From Desulfovibrio sp. (GTDB lineage: Bacteria > Desulfobacterota > Desulfovibrionia > Desulfovibrionales > Desulfovibrionaceae): a DNA stretch of 64,000 nucleotides. Positions within the stretch are counted from its first letter, which is position 1. Every line of letters begins with the position of its first letter. The stretch is taken from positions 39,621-103,620 of the forward strand of contig JAISWB010000096.1 of assembly GCA_031271265.1 (NCBI GenBank), written 5' to 3'. Shown here piece by piece: positions 26,290 to 63,665 of this stretch. The notes under the pieces are model-generated. The model was not told the origin of the DNA. It was given only the letters and a program-made list of their open reading frames with translations, and ran no database searches. A program made the position numbers and the translations under genes.

Positions 26290-27306
26290 ATGCGGCAACG
26301 CCGTCCCGCGGGGGGACTCATCGGCCTGTCTCGCTCCCGGCGGTTTCCCGGGGGCCGGCTTCCCTCCCACCTGCGCCCCTCCCGCTTGCTTCCCTCCCAC
26401 CTGCGCCCCTCTCGCTTGCTTCCCTCCCGCCTGCGCCCCTCCCGCTTGCTTCCCTACAGCCTGTTTCGCTTCCGGCTGTTTCGCTCCCACCTGCTTCCCG
26501 GCGGTCGGATTTTCCTCTGTTTGTTTATCCTCGGCCTGCTCTCCGCCGCCTTGCGCCCGCTTCCTCTTGCCGCCGCCGAAGCGACATACACCAATTCCCT
26601 CGGTATGGAATTCGTCTTGATCCCGGCAGGATCCTTCATGATGGGTTCGGAAGCGCGGGACAGTGAGAAGCCGCGCCGCCGCGTGAGCATCGGCAAAGCC
26701 TTTTACCTGGGCAAGCACGAGGTAACGCAGGCGCAGTGGGCGACACTCATGGAGGAGAATCCCAGTTGGTTCAGGGGAGCCGAACTCCCTGTGGAGCAGG
26801 TCTTCTGGGACCGGGCGCAGGAGTTCATCAACCGCCTGAACCGCAGGGAAGGGCACACGCGTTATCGTCTGCCGACGGAAGCGGAGTGGGAATATGCGGC
26901 ACGGGCAGGCCGCGATGACGCGGGCCTTGGGGATGCCGGATCTGTTGCGGAGGTTGCGGGCGTCTTGGGGCGGGTTGCCTGGTACGACAGAAATTCCGGC
27001 AACAGCACGCATCCCGTGGGACAAAAGGAGCCCAATGCCTTGGGACTCTACGACATGCTCGGGAACGTAAACGAATGGGTGCTGGACCGGTTTGCCGCCG
27101 ACTATTACGCGCACGGGCCGGGGCAGGACCCGCCGGGACCGGAAAGCGGGACGCTCCGGGTGCGCAGAGGCGGCAGTTGGAGCGACGAGGCCGCGAACTG
27201 TCGCGTTGCGGCGCGCGCTTTCGATGCGCCGACCGAGAGCCTCTGCGGACCGCCGGGCTGCCGGCTCGGTGATTTGGGGTTCAGGGTGCTGCTCATGCCG
27301 GAGTAG
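26290..27306 (+). CDS. Secreted SUMF1/formylglycine-generating-enzyme-like protein with Arg-rich N-terminal repeat
   Basis: TNSLGMEFVLIPAGSFMMGSE, YLGKHEVTQAQWATLM, YRLPTEAEWEYAARAG, LYDMLGNVNEWV, RVRRGGSWSD. Confidence 0.85.
   Translation: MRQRRPAGGLIGLSRSRRFPGGRLPSHLRPSRLLPSHLRPSRLLPSRLRPSRLLPYSLFRFRLFRSHLLPGGRIFLCLFILGLLSAALRPLPLAAAEATYTNSLGMEFVLIPAGSFMMGSEARDSEKPRRRVSIGKAFYLGKHEVTQAQWATLMEENPSWFRGAELPVEQVFWDRAQEFINRLNRREGHTRYRLPTEAEWEYAARAGRDDAGLGDAGSVAEVAGVLGRVAWYDRNSGNSTHPVGQKEPNALGLYDMLGNVNEWVLDRFAADYYAHGPGQDPPGPESGTLRVRRGGSWSDEAANCRVAARAFDAPTESLCGPPGCRLGDLGFRVLLMPE
26326..26505 (+). repeat. 15-bp/30-bp tandem repeat array in the SUMF1-like gene N-terminus
   Basis: Units tccctcccacctgcgcccctcccgcttgct at 26361, 26391 and 26421; degenerate 15-bp units on both sides. 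Confidence 0.9.
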
Positions 27307-57078: not shown

Positions 57079-57903
57079 TTATTGCCGGATTTTGGCCCGC
57101 CTGTTCTGCACATAGGCATCCCGGACGGACGCATACGGATCGACTGCGCCCAGCTTGAGTTGATCGTACATATCAAGAATCTGATCCAGGTTGTTGACGA
57201 CCTCAAGTGCCGACAGGCCCAGGCCGAGTTGCCACGGATCGTCGATCCAGGTGGTGGGGCTGAGCAGGTAGTCGCCGCCCAGACCGACAGTGTCGCGCAG
57301 TGTTTTCGGTCCCAGCAGCGGCCAGACAAGGTACAGCCCCTCGCCTATTCCCCATACGCCCATGGTCTGTCCGGTATCTTCGTCGCTGACGGGCACGACC
57401 GTTTCCAGTTTTTCGGCCGGGTTGAACAGTCCGCCGAGGCCGGCGGTGGTGTTGAATATGAAACGCGACATTTCCACGCCGGCCGCCAGCGGTTTGCCCT
57501 GCAACAGGTTGTTTGTGAAACGCACCGGGAAATTCAGGTTGTAGAAGAAGTTGGAAATGCCCTTGCGCATGAATTCCGGTGTGACAAAAGTATAGCCCGC
57601 GGACAGGGGCCGGGCCGCATGCTCCAGAATCACGTCGTTGATCACGAAAAAAGCACGGTTCACAGGCTCCAGGGGGTCGGCGATGATCCGCCCGACCTGG
57701 TCAGCATAGGCGTCGTCTTCGTCCAGGGAAGGCAGATGGTCGCTGCCGGCAACGCGCCCGCCTTCCCCGGACGTCTCGTAGGTGTCCTGGTCCGGCGCCA
57801 GCAGCTTCGCCCCGAAGGGAAACTCCGCAGCGCAGGCGTCCCGGCCGGGAACAGGCAACAGGAGCAACAGGGATACGGCGACAATAATTTTGAGCATCGA
57901 CAT
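57079..57903 (-). CDS. mlaA: MlaA (VacJ) family lipid-asymmetry protein
   Basis: DPLEPVNRAFFVINDVILEHAARPLSAGYTFVTPEFMRKGISNFFYNLNFPVRFTNNLLQGK. Confidence 0.93.
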   Translation of the reverse strand: MSMLKIIVAVSLLLLLPVPGRDACAAEFPFGAKLLAPDQDTYETSGEGGRVAGSDHLPSLDEDDAYADQVGRIIADPLEPVNRAFFVINDVILEHAARPLSAGYTFVTPEFMRKGISNFFYNLNFPVRFTNNLLQGKPLAAGVEMSRFIFNTTAGLGGLFNPAEKLETVVPVSDEDTGQTMGVWGIGEGLYLVWPLLGPKTLRDTVGLGGDYLLSPTTWIDDPWQLGLGLSALEVVNNLDQILDMYDQLKLGAVDPYASVRDAYVQNRRAKIRQ

Positions 57904-58526
57904 CAGCTCCCTGTTTTGCCGGCCGCGATTTCTTCGGTCTTTTGCCGGATCATGCGGACCAGCGTGTCGACATCGTCTTTGTCCAGAATCGACTGAAACT
58001 GCGAACGGTAATTTTGCACCAGGCTGACGCCTTCAATGATGACGTCGTATATCAGCCAGCGGTCGGCCTTCAGCATGCGGTAAGCCACCGGGACGGCTTT
58101 ACCGTCGCTTTCCACAACAGTCTGTATTTCCACCTTGTCGCCCTTGGTGCTCGCCGTTTCCCCGGTGTAGGTAATCTTTTCACCGTCGTAGCCGTCCATG
58201 CTGTGCAGGTAGCGCGCCCGCAAAAGGTCTTCAAAGGCTGTCTTGAACTGTGCTTTCTGCTCCGGAGTGAAGCTTTTCCATTTCGGACCCACCGTGCGCA
58301 TGGAAAGTTCGTCGAAGCTGAAGAGCTGCTTGATGATTCTTTCAATGTTCGCAAGTACGGGTTGACGGGTAGCCGGATCGCGCATTGCGGGCTTTTTCAG
58401 TTCCGTCAGAACCTGGTTGATCGTGTTTTCCAAGGCGTCGCGCGCTTCGGAGGCGGCGGCGGGGGCGGCAAAGAGGCAGGTCAGGCACAGCACCGCGGCC
58501 GCAATGACAGTGAAACGAGGCATCAT
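57903..58526 (-). CDS. mlaC: MlaC family phospholipid-binding protein
   Basis: FSFDELSMRTVGPKWKSFTPEQKAQFKTAFEDLLRARYLHSMDGY, VPVAYRMLKADRWLIYDVIIEGVSLVQNYRSQF. Confidence 0.92.
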   Translation of the reverse strand: MMPRFTVIAAAVLCLTCLFAAPAAASEARDALENTINQVLTELKKPAMRDPATRQPVLANIERIIKQLFSFDELSMRTVGPKWKSFTPEQKAQFKTAFEDLLRARYLHSMDGYDGEKITYTGETASTKGDKVEIQTVVESDGKAVPVAYRMLKADRWLIYDVIIEGVSLVQNYRSQFQSILDKDDVDTLVRMIRQKTEEIAAGKTGS

Positions 58527-58969
58527 TTTACACCTCCGAAAACATATTTGCTGATCAGGGCTTCAAGGTCCACCGCGGATTCGGTTTCCGTCACCTCACC
58601 GCCGGGCTGCAGCGCGACGGAAGAGCCGCCGGGCGAGATGCTGACGAATTTGTCGCCTATCAGCCCGCTGGTTTTTACGGATGCTATGGAGTCGTCGCTC
58701 AGTTCAATGCCTTTGTCAATCAACAGCGAAACCGAAGCCCCGTAGTTTTTGTTCAGGCTGATCCCGGCGACCCTGCCCACGCGCACGCCGGCGATTTCAA
58801 CTGCCGCACCGGGCTTGAGCCCGGCGACGGAACTGAAGCCCGCGGTCAGCGTGTAGCCGTCGTTGCCGAATACCTCCATTTTTCCGAGCTTTACCGTCAT
58901 GTAGGTCAGGCAGAGCAGACCGACGAACATGAACAAGCCTACTGAAAATTCACGCGAGTATTTGTTCAC
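58523..58969 (-). CDS. mlaD: MlaD (MCE domain) protein
   Basis: YTLTAGFSSVAGLKPGAAVEIAGVRVGRVAGISL, IASVKTSGLIGDKFVSISPGG. Confidence 0.93.
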   Translation of the reverse strand: MNKYSREFSVGLFMFVGLLCLTYMTVKLGKMEVFGNDGYTLTAGFSSVAGLKPGAAVEIAGVRVGRVAGISLNKNYGASVSLLIDKGIELSDDSIASVKTSGLIGDKFVSISPGGSSVALQPGGEVTETESAVDLEALISKYVFGGVK

Positions 58970-59100
58970 CGGGCCTTCCTCCGGGCTGTGCCGTCACAAG
59001 AGGCACAACGCTTTGCAATCATTGAATATCGTAAGTTACATGGGGCGCCGCCCTTACAAGGCTGGGGCCGCCTGCCGCGCAAGTTTACTGAATACCGTGT

Positions 59101-59925
59101 CTAAAAACCGAGGGCCTCATGCATGAGCCTGCGTGTTTCTTCGGCCAGTTGCAGGCGCGGGTCGTCGGCCTGCCCGGCCTGCGGGGGCGAACGGTCCATA
59201 AAGCTGCGCAGGTAGGGATCGTCCGCGTTTGCCAGCCCTTCAAGGCTGCCCGCATAGGCGATGCCGCCGTTGTGCAGGACAACCACGATGTCGGCTATGT
59301 TTTTGACCGAGGCCATGTCGTGGCTGACCGACACGATGGTCATGTTCGTAAAACGCGTCTTCATGTCCAGCAGCAGTTCGTCCATCTGCGCCGCGCTGAT
59401 GGGGTCGAGGCCGGAGGTCGGCTCGTCGCAGAGCAGCAGGGGGGGGTCGGTGACCAGAGCGCGGGCCAGGCCGGCGCGTTTTTTCATGCCGCCGGACAAT
59501 TCCGAGGGATAATAGTCGGCAAAATCGGCCAACCCCACCAGGGCCAGCTTGTGCAGAACGATTTCCCGGACTGCGGCCGGGAGAAGCCTCGTGTGTTCTG
59601 TGAGCGGCAACGCCGTGTTTTCCGCCACCGTAAGCTGTCCGAGCAGTGCGCCGTCCTGAAAAAGCACGCCCATGCGCCTGCGCGCCGCGCGCAGCTCCTT
59701 GTCCGGAAGGGAGAAAAGGTCGTTGCCGCCGAGCAGTATCCGGCCGCGCAGGGGTTTTGCCAGCCCTATGATATGGCGCAACATGGTGGTCTTGCCCCCG
59801 CCGGAACCGCCGAGGACCGCGCTGATGCGCCCGCCCGGAAAAACCACGGAAATATCGTCCAGGATGACGGTATCGCCGTACCCCATGCCGACGCTTTGAA
59901 ATTCTATGTCCCAGGGCCGTTCCAT
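59101..59925 (-). CDS. mlaF: MlaF ABC ATPase
   Basis: VLGGSGGGKTTMLRHIIGLAKP, LSGGMKKRAGLARALVTDPPLLLCDEPTSGLDPISA. Confidence 0.94.
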   Translation of the reverse strand: MERPWDIEFQSVGMGYGDTVILDDISVVFPGGRISAVLGGSGGGKTTMLRHIIGLAKPLRGRILLGGNDLFSLPDKELRAARRRMGVLFQDGALLGQLTVAENTALPLTEHTRLLPAAVREIVLHKLALVGLADFADYYPSELSGGMKKRAGLARALVTDPPLLLCDEPTSGLDPISAAQMDELLLDMKTRFTNMTIVSVSHDMASVKNIADIVVVLHNGGIAYAGSLEGLANADDPYLRSFMDRSPPQAGQADDPRLQLAEETRRLMHEALGF

Positions 59926-59928
59926 GAT

Positions 59929-60750
59929 CTACAGCAGGAAAGAGGTGAGTACATAGTCGGCCGCGAGCAGCAGGATGCAGGAAAGCACCACCGCCGACGT
60001 CGTGGCGTTGCCGACGGCCTCCGCTCCCATGCCGTCGTCGCGCGTGTGCGCGAAATAGCCCTTGCAGCAACATACGGTGACGACGATCAGGGCAAAGACC
60101 AGGGATTTGCCCAGGCAACCGCTCACGTCCGCCCAGCGCACGCTGCTCCCGATACGGGAAAAATACACCCCCCCGCTCATGCCCAGCATGAGCACTCCCG
60201 TGGCATAGCCTCCGAGTATGCCGACCGTGCTGAAAATCGAGGTCAGCAGGGGAAAGGTGATCAGGGAGGCCGTTATGCGCGGGGCGACAAGGTAGCCCAT
60301 GGGGTCGATGTCCATGACTTCAAGGGCGTCGATCTGGTCGCCGATGCGCATGACGCCGATTTCCGCAGCCATGGCCGAGCCGGCCCGGCCCGTGACCATG
60401 ATGGCCGTCAGCACCGGCGCAAGCTCGCGCACAAGGCTCAGGGCAACGGCCGAACCGAGAAAGCCTTCCGCGCCGAACATGCTCAGGGTGTAGTAGCCCT
60501 GCAGACCCAGCACCATGCCCGTAAACAGGCCGATGAAAACAATAAGGAACATGGAGCCGGCACCGATAACGCGTATCTGGCGCAGTACCTTGGGTAACTG
60601 AGTGCGGGAACTGAACATGCGCCTGATACCGCGCGCCAGGAAGATGCCCATGGCTCCCGTTTCGCACAGGAACAGCACGCCCGCCCGGCCGAGAGCACGC
60701 AACAGGGAAGCGGCGGAATTCAGCGAAGGCGCGTTTGTTTTGTCCGGCAT
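59929..60750 (-). CDS. mlaE: MlaE permease
   Basis: GMVLGLQGYYTLSMFGAEGFLGSAVALSLVRELAPVLTAIMVTGRAGSAMAAEIGVMRIGDQIDALEVM. Confidence 0.95.
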   Translation of the reverse strand: MPDKTNAPSLNSAASLLRALGRAGVLFLCETGAMGIFLARGIRRMFSSRTQLPKVLRQIRVIGAGSMFLIVFIGLFTGMVLGLQGYYTLSMFGAEGFLGSAVALSLVRELAPVLTAIMVTGRAGSAMAAEIGVMRIGDQIDALEVMDIDPMGYLVAPRITASLITFPLLTSIFSTVGILGGYATGVLMLGMSGGVYFSRIGSSVRWADVSGCLGKSLVFALIVVTVCCCKGYFAHTRDDGMGAEAVGNATTSAVVLSCILLLAADYVLTSFLL

Positions 60751-60994: not shown

Positions 60995-62167
60995 TCAAAT
61001 ACTTTTGCGTTCTTCCAGCAAACATTCCACTCGATCCATGAAGGCGTCCAGACCGCATGCTGCGCCCGGCGGCGGGTTGAACCCGGCGGGAGGCGGTTTT
61101 CCGAGCAGGAGCCTGATGCGCCGCACCAGTTCCCCGACGTCTGCCGGGTCCTCCAATACCGCATCCCTGTCCAGAAAGAAGGAGGCGCCGTCGGCGGAAC
61201 TGCTCAGAGTCCGGCATCCCGATGCCAGGGCTTCGAGTACGGCATTGGAGCAGGCATCGTAAAATGTAGGGAGGACGAAAAGGTCCAGCGCCCGATAAAA
61301 AGCGGGCATATCCTCCGTTTTTCCCATAAAGACGACGCGCCGCTCAATTCCAAGGGCACGGGCCGGATCCAGATAGGAGGCCGCTTTTCTGCCGCCCGCC
61401 GTCAGAAGCAGGACATTGTCCGGCAGCAGGGCCGTTGCCCGTATCAGCCTGTCCACGCCTTTGAGCCGGAAATTGGTGGATGCGGTGCCGATCAGGATAT
61501 ATTCGTCGGGGTTGTCCGCGAGGTGCGGAGCATACCTGCGGAGCAGGGCGCGGCGGGCCTCACTGCGCTCCGCCGGTGAAGGGGGCCGAAAACGCGCGGG
61601 GTCCGGCCTGTTGTAGACCACGGCAACCTTGTCCGGGTCCAGGGCGGGATACGCCGACAAAAGTTGCTCCCGCGTCAGGTCGGAAACGGCAATGACCCGG
61701 CTTTCCGGTCCGAAAGCACGGCGCTCCAGAAACAGGATCAACAGGTTGGACGGCGACAGCCGGCGGAGGACGGTTTTCAGCGCACGCCGGTAACCGGAGG
61801 GAACAGCCCGTTCCGATTGTTTTCGGAAAATCTTCAGCGGTCCCCCGCCCATGCGGATCAGATCCTGGCGCAGACTTTTGCCGAGGCCGACGGTAAGGTC
61901 GTAGGCGCCTTTCGCGCGCAACCGCTCCGCCCGTACCAGGAAACAAAGCATCTTGAACAGACGGAAGCCGGGCGGGCGCCCGGTACTGATGACGCGCACC
62001 CCCGGCGGCGCCGGCGCCTCCTGCCGGGAACAGATGAAATCCACGCTGTACCCCCGGCCCGCCAGCCCCTCCGCCAGACGGTACCCGAACTGTTCAACGC
62101 CGCCGTACAGGGAAAAACGCGGCAGAAGAACGGCTATGCGGGCGTGCTTCGCGGCGGACGGAGGCAT
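60995..62167 (-). CDS. GT4 glycosyltransferase (WaaG-like)
   Basis: FSLYGGVEQFGYRLAEGLAGRGY, NFRLKGVDRLIRATALL, FVLPTFYDACSNAVLEALASGC; start at ATG 62167 chosen. Confidence 0.82.
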   Translation of the reverse strand: MPPSAAKHARIAVLLPRFSLYGGVEQFGYRLAEGLAGRGYSVDFICSRQEAPAPPGVRVISTGRPPGFRLFKMLCFLVRAERLRAKGAYDLTVGLGKSLRQDLIRMGGGPLKIFRKQSERAVPSGYRRALKTVLRRLSPSNLLILFLERRAFGPESRVIAVSDLTREQLLSAYPALDPDKVAVVYNRPDPARFRPPSPAERSEARRALLRRYAPHLADNPDEYILIGTASTNFRLKGVDRLIRATALLPDNVLLLTAGGRKAASYLDPARALGIERRVVFMGKTEDMPAFYRALDLFVLPTFYDACSNAVLEALASGCRTLSSSADGASFFLDRDAVLEDPADVGELVRRIRLLLGKPPPAGFNPPPGAACGLDAFMDRVECLLEERKSI

Positions 62168-62174
62168 TGTCCGG

Positions 62175-62299
62175 TCAGAACATGCGGGCGGTGTTCTTGC
62201 CGCCGTGCTTTGCCGTATACAGCGCCATGTCGGAACTCCTTCAGAACATGCGGACGGTGTTCTTGCCGCCGTGCTTTGCCGCATACAGCGCCATGTCGG
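62175..62299 (-). repeat. 66-bp-period duplication of the GGDEF gene 3' end
   Basis: 62175-62233 and 62241-62299 match at 57 of 59 positions; each carries the TGA stop. Confidence 0.95.
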
Positions 62300-63161
62300 C
62301 CCTGCGGATACACTCGTCGATGTCTTCCCCGTGCCGGTACAGCGTACAGCCGACACTGACGGTGAACATGGGCAGGGCGGGATCGACGACCGTCTCGGAC
62401 GTTTTTTTTCTGAGCTTTTCCGCAACGGTCAGAAGCTGCTCCTCGGTCGCGCCGGGGATCGCCAGGATAAACTCTTCTCCGCCGTAACGGCCGATGATGT
62501 CCTCCTGGCGCAGGTTGGCCGGCAACAGGTCGCCCAGCGCGCAAAGCACCTGGTCTCCCGCCTGATGACCGTATGTGTCGTTGATGCGCTTGAAATTGTC
62601 CACATCAAGCATGATCAGCGCAAGGCTTTTGCCCGTTTCACGCGCGCCTGCCGTCTTCTCTTCCAGTTGTTCCCTGAAGGCCGCCCTGTTCAGGAGTCTG
62701 GTCAGGCCGTCGGTACTCGCTTTTTGCTTGTAGCGCGTGATGTCGTTTTGCATCGCTTCGCGTTCCAGCAGCACCGTTCTTGCCTTGCGCAGCATCTCCC
62801 GCCGCCGGGCATAGCTCTCCGTGAGCAGGCGCACGGTTACGGCCTGCGTGTCCCCGTAACATACGGCTTCGGCCGTCAGAGCCTGGTTGTGCCCGCAAAG
62901 GTCGTCCTCTTCCCAACTGCCGGACGAGATGACACCGCTTTCGCCGGAGGCGAAAAATTCTTCCGCGGATTCATAAAAAAAACTCAGCATCTCCGATCGT
63001 TGCCACGGCGTATTGCAGCGGCCGCCCGGACCGGGCGGAAACAGTTCGTCATAAAAAGCGGGGGGAATGTCGATGAGGCGGTATTCTCCCGGAGCCGTCC
63101 GTTGCAGGACAGCCACATCCATGGCCTTGAGAATATCCGCCGCGATGCGTTCACTGCTCAT
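62241..63161 (-). CDS. GGDEF domain diguanylate cyclase
   Basis: ASTDGLTRLLNRAAFREQLEE, LIMLDVDNFKRINDTYGHQAGD, DIIGRYGGEEFILAIP. Confidence 0.93.
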   Translation of the reverse strand: MSSERIAADILKAMDVAVLQRTAPGEYRLIDIPPAFYDELFPPGPGGRCNTPWQRSEMLSFFYESAEEFFASGESGVISSGSWEEDDLCGHNQALTAEAVCYGDTQAVTVRLLTESYARRREMLRKARTVLLEREAMQNDITRYKQKASTDGLTRLLNRAAFREQLEEKTAGARETGKSLALIMLDVDNFKRINDTYGHQAGDQVLCALGDLLPANLRQEDIIGRYGGEEFILAIPGATEEQLLTVAEKLRKKTSETVVDPALPMFTVSVGCTLYRHGEDIDECIRRADMALYAAKHGGKNTVRMF

Positions 63162-63170
63162 CTCGGCTGC

Positions 63171-63665
63171 CTACAGCATGGCCTCGGCCAGGGTCCGGAA
63201 GGATTCTTCGACGGATTGGCCGGTTTTGGCGCAGGTGGCGAAGGTTGTGAGCCCTTCGTCGTTGCGCAGCCTGTCCACATCGTCGCGCGTCACCTGCCAG
63301 TCGGGAGCGAGGTCCGCTTTGTTGATGAGCAGACAGTGGGGTATGGGGCCGGTCACATCCAGAGCCGTCGAGCGCAGTTGGAGCGCCGCGTCCAGGGTAT
63401 CGCGCCGCGTGCCGTCGGCAACGAGAAAAAAGCCCATTGCCCCGCGCAGATACGAAATGTTGACATCCGTAAACGCATCACGTCCTTCCATATCCCAGAG
63501 AACCAAATTCATCTCGACGCCGTTCATCTCAATGATTTTTTTGCTGATCTTGACGCCTACCGTGGTCAGGTAGTCATCGGAGAATATGGAATACACGTAC
63601 TGTTTGACCAGAGAGGTTTTACCGACGGCAAAGGCGCCGAGCATACATATTTTCTTGGTGAGCAT
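63171..63665 (-). CDS. Ras/Rab-like small GTPase
   Basis: GAFAVGKTSLVKQYV (G1), LWDMEGRD (divergent G3), LLINKADL (G4), CAK (G5). Confidence 0.8.
   Translation of the reverse strand: MLTKKICMLGAFAVGKTSLVKQYVYSIFSDDYLTTVGVKISKKIIEMNGVEMNLVLWDMEGRDAFTDVNISYLRGAMGFFLVADGTRRDTLDAALQLRSTALDVTGPIPHCLLINKADLAPDWQVTRDDVDRLRNDEGLTTFATCAKTGQSVEESFRTLAEAML

Follow-up and report, generated by a model that had tools for sequence, protein, structure and literature searches.

The last 59 bp of a GGDEF gene in this Desulfovibrio genome are followed, after a 7-nt linker, by a second, near-identical copy that lies between that gene and a downstream glycosyltransferase (GT) gene. The most probable history, to which we assign a probability of about 0.7, is one recent and private slippage or template-switch event in which the 59-bp GGDEF end was re-copied before GT. 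Within the window (the whole 64,000-nt stretch of DNA analyzed), a repeat finder places the direct repeat at 62175-62233 and 62241-62299, with 57 of 59 positions identical (97%) and an offset of 66; the 66-bp repeat is also the top array of the window in TRF, with a score of 236. Both programs agree with the coordinates, length, identity, and offset given in the initial annotation. The features of the locus, in order of translation, are as follows:

63171-63665, minus strand: Ras-like small GTPase gene of the same operon, upstream of the GGDEF gene (Pfam Ras, E = 5e-29)
62241-63161, minus strand: GGDEF diguanylate cyclase gene, 306 aa (open reading frame, Pfam, and solved-structure matches), whose 3' end is the ancestral repeat copy
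62241-62299, minus strand: repeat copy 1, the ancestral copy and true GGDEF 3' end, which agrees with single-copy orthologues at both differing sites
62234-62240, minus strand: 7-nt linker AGGAGTT, which with the last A of the TGA forms the Shine-Dalgarno sequence AAGGAG
62175-62233, minus strand: repeat copy 2, derived, with two substitutions by comparison of the repeats
62175-62228, minus strand: 17-codon mini-ORF inside copy 2, encoding MALYTAKHGGKNTARMF and a stop (anti-Shine-Dalgarno duplex, -8.3 kcal/mol)
62168-62174, minus strand: 7-nt spacer CCGGACA from the copy-2 stop to the GT ATG; relatives have it as the ancestral intergenic spacer
60995-62167, minus strand: group 1/GT4-type GT gene, 390 aa, with a weak Shine-Dalgarno of its own (-3.2 kcal/mol)

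Read along the minus strand, the GGDEF gene, ending in ADMALYAAKHGGKNTVRMF-TGA, is succeeded by AGGAGTT, copy 2, CCGGACA, and the GT ATG. A 59-bp sequence and the linker make up the repeated unit, and the longest stretch of perfect identity between the copies is 27 bp. The linker differs from both the 7 nt preceding copy 1 (CGCAGGG) and the 7 nt following copy 2 (CCGGACA), and neither flanks nor microhomology explain the junction as an exact head-to-tail joining; thus, this is not a simple exact tandem duplication. The initial annotation had placed the repeat exactly between two operonic genes; its position between two genes that lie close together in relatives stands, while 'exactly' is too strong for a duplication carrying a non-matching linker. 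In a search for a donor, the 12-mer over the linker, TGAAGGAGTTCC, was found nowhere else in the genome. A 19-mer allowed up to three mismatches occurs once more, on an unrelated contig and with two mismatches, and was not taken as the source. The junction 24-mer has no match in viral contigs. A template switch may have left filler at the linker junction, and slippage or template switching with filler would be the likeliest route; literature searches on short duplications yielded little that bears directly on this case.

The GGDEF protein is left unchanged by the duplication, the full gene being retained via the upstream copy. Its translation contains the active-site motif GGEEF and an RxxD I-site motif, RQED, and Pfam GGDEF (PF00990) matches residues 148-301 with E = 2.4e-45 over profile positions 1-160 of 161, so the domain is complete. 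TIGR00254 also matches, the nearest solved structures are diguanylate cyclases, and the motif and complete domain together identify the protein as one. The Ras-like GTPase gene directly upstream in the window adjoins the GGDEF orthologue in 11 of 11 genus loci (L003-L013), forming a conserved GTPase-diguanylate cyclase pair, and a GT lies downstream of GGDEF in the four nearest loci only, within the DNA fetched. Further downstream of GT, on the minus strand at 57079-60750, the genes read by eye as a putative Mla-type lipid transport operon (permease, ATPase, MlaD-like, MlaC-like, and MlaA-like).

Orthologues of the GGDEF gene are present in most genomes of the genus. The nearest three, in G012, G013, and G009 (90, 89, and 84% amino-acid identity, respectively), all carry the gene end in single copy. 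The GGDEF stop lies 7 nt ahead of the GT ATG in G012 and G013, where the sequence after the TGA is CCGGGCAATG and CCGGACGATG, respectively; in G009 it is CCGGGCAAAG, and that ATG has been lost. The three relatives all match copy 1 at both positions that distinguish the copies, which makes copy 2 the derived one at each. Adjacent, near-identical copies and a single-copy ancestral state in relatives are what a tandem duplication leaves behind, and the 57/59 identity, together with orthologues that show the pre-event state, excludes a chance repeat. Between this genome and G012, 24 of 89 four-fold degenerate sites differ; the two copies differ at 2 of 59 sites, and by this measure the duplication looks clearly younger than the split from G012, with the two changes giving a rough age only. 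The same two differences indicate that it has persisted for some time.

A pattern search over 288 family genomes found the doubled motif (GACATGGC..TA twice, 44-74 bp apart) in none of the 287 others; the pattern required GACATGGC twice, so diverged copies would escape it. Similarly, no comparable second copy follows the gene at 103 other GGDEF ends (score 92 here, 29 for the next). The idea that GGDEF ends are generally prone to duplication was dropped, as neither the 104 ends nor the 288 genomes searched by pattern gave a second case. With the nearest orthologues in single copy and the doubled motif absent elsewhere, the duplication is, on sequence comparison, private to this species (represented by one assembly), recent, and derived. 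The initial annotation had proposed a recent duplication from the letters of this stretch; the three single-copy relatives bear out the duplication, and the orthologues, the 288-genome pattern, and the site comparison place it in this lineage after the split from the nearest species.

Short tandem duplications also occur elsewhere in this genome (G000). Its 411-kb sample (the window and L114-L131, from large contigs) holds 21 TRF arrays with a period of at least 30, of which 14 score at least 150; the corresponding counts are five and two in 354 kb from four congeners, and four and three in 536 kb from diverse species. Arrays with a period of 30-100 are in apparent excess in G000 over both sets, in samples that are non-random, smaller for the relatives, and composed of short pieces for the diverse species. 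For instance, a 42-bp tandem duplication (C85, L126:11111-11203) runs across the stop codon of an NtrC-like regulator gene and its ATGA junction with the next frame; it was not seen at the aligned place in G007, G009, G012, and G013. At C85, L123:9934-10065, 68 bp from the 5' end of an MFS-type transporter gene are duplicated in tandem, leaving a 23-codon upstream ORF whose stop overlaps the true start of the transporter as ATGA; this array was not seen at the aligned place in the relatives that allowed comparison. In the window itself, an array whose 15/30/60-bp unit abounds in CTCCC lies inside a long open frame at 26354-26499. The many short tandem duplications, two others of them at gene junctions, suggest that the GGDEF-GT locus exemplifies a mutational tendency general to this lineage. 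It is a long shot that such duplications repeatedly hit operon stop/start junctions in this species, making mini-ORF relays that would retune coupling, so that new leader ORFs would arise recurrently by duplication at gene junctions.

The mini-ORF in copy 2 runs from an ATG at 62228 to a TGA at 62175 (17 codons and the stop) and shares the GGDEF frame, 66 nt being 22 codons. Its ATG lies 12 nt past the GGDEF stop and 7 nt from the AAGGAG at 62241-62236, and its stop is 7 nt before the GT ATG. The good Shine-Dalgarno, ATG, 17 codons, and 7-nt distance to GT reported in the initial annotation are all found on the minus strand, and the stop/start junction has been re-created as claimed, the copy-2 stop again standing 7 nt ahead of the next gene's ATG. 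The duplex energy of -8.3 kcal/mol at the mini-ORF compares with -3.2 at the start of GT itself and -2.3 to -3.2 at the corresponding place in relatives. Among random 7-nt linkers of this G+C, 1.8% would give a Shine-Dalgarno as strong, a post hoc figure for one feature; that the linker supplies a strong Shine-Dalgarno is suggestive. The GGDEF stop, 7 nt from the GT start before the event, is now 73 nt away from it. We took a stop and start separated by about -8 to +10 nt to mark a coupled pair; such a distance is found between the mini-ORF and GT (7 nt), as it is between GGDEF and GT in G012 and G013 (7 nt).

Reporters tested in E. coli and Haloferax lose nearly all reinitiation beyond a stop-start distance of roughly 20-40 nt, and the final 15 nt of the gene upstream are enough for coupling (PMC10666635). 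These values make it plausible that the duplication bears on coupling, and imply that GT would lose its coupling to GGDEF across a bare gap of 73 nt. We propose that slippage or a template switch inserted the second 59-bp GGDEF end and its non-matching linker between GGDEF and GT, creating a gap that would be too long for normal termination-reinitiation and that the mini-ORF would occupy. Ribosomes finishing GGDEF, or entering at the new Shine-Dalgarno, would translate the mini-ORF and, on leaving its stop at the ancestral distance of 7 nt, would reinitiate at GT, the expression of which would be roughly preserved or modestly altered. For the relay step alone, in which the mini-ORF passes ribosomes to GT, we put the odds at about even. 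A mini-ORF preserving coupling fits at least as well as one changing it, and since ribosomes would be brought to a stop 7 nt before GT, as in relatives, preserved coupling is more likely than a switch. Several points count against a relay: GT could initiate independently; G009, without an ATG here, indicates that even near relatives do not all keep the precise 7-nt coupling; predicted accessibility at the GT start shows no clear change (0.33 vs. 0.36); and the 1.8% figure is a post hoc test.

Nearly as likely as a relay that preserves coupling, though somewhat short of even odds, is a neutral passenger that has no effect on GT translation and survived by falling outside both proteins. The intact GGDEF gene, the barely altered predicted structure at the GT start, and the frequency of short tandem duplications in the sampled part of the genome are all consistent with such a passenger, whereas the weak GT Shine-Dalgarno and the very short spacer in relatives suggest dependence on upstream termination, and the linker would have to be a strong Shine-Dalgarno by chance. 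A reversible switch of the kind suggested in the initial annotation, in which RecA-independent deletion and re-duplication toggle GT translation in populations, finds no support here and is highly unlikely: adjacent direct repeats that share a perfect stretch of 27 bp can recombine or slip, but two sites already differ between the copies, and a deletion would remove the linker, which nothing restores, so the change would be one-way and not a toggle.

Less probable again is a misassembly in which strain variants were joined. The assembly has 116 contigs and is apparently a metagenome bin, which leaves some room for such a join, yet the 27-bp identical stretch is far shorter than an ordinary read, two differences separate the copies, a linker unique in the genome connects them, and similar arrays occur at unrelated loci. 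Readthrough of the UGA, which would extend GGDEF to a C-terminus ending in RSSDMALYTAKHGGKNTARMF, is the least probable of all; copy 2 is open and in frame, but that placement has one chance in three, no readthrough signal was identified at the GGDEF stop, and copy 2 only repeats the end of an already complete domain.

The duplication is most likely an ordinary young mutation and, taken alone, alters no view of the system. It does provide a natural before/after pair, with a 7-nt junction in near relatives and here a 73-nt gap bridged by a new mini-ORF. If the relay works, random duplication can add sequence to a coupled operon without breaking the coupling.

In general terms, the locus resembles the short tandem duplications produced by slippage or template switching in bacteria, with adjacent direct copies of tens of bp that are near identical and lineage-private, and differs from them in a 7-nt linker matching neither flank. 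It shares with termination-reinitiation coupling a stop 7 nt before the ATG, a weak downstream Shine-Dalgarno, and the need for only a short upstream stretch (PMC10666635, PMC6728339). Here, the ribosome would terminate on a duplicated remnant of 17 codons and not at the end of the natural upstream gene. Natural leader mini-ORFs and the expression leaders of bicistronic designs consist of a short ORF with a strong Shine-Dalgarno that ends just before the main start. The mini-ORF described here is alike in all three respects, being short, preceded by a strong Shine-Dalgarno, and ending just before GT, and differs in having arisen, as it appears, within an operon from the duplicated end of a gene.
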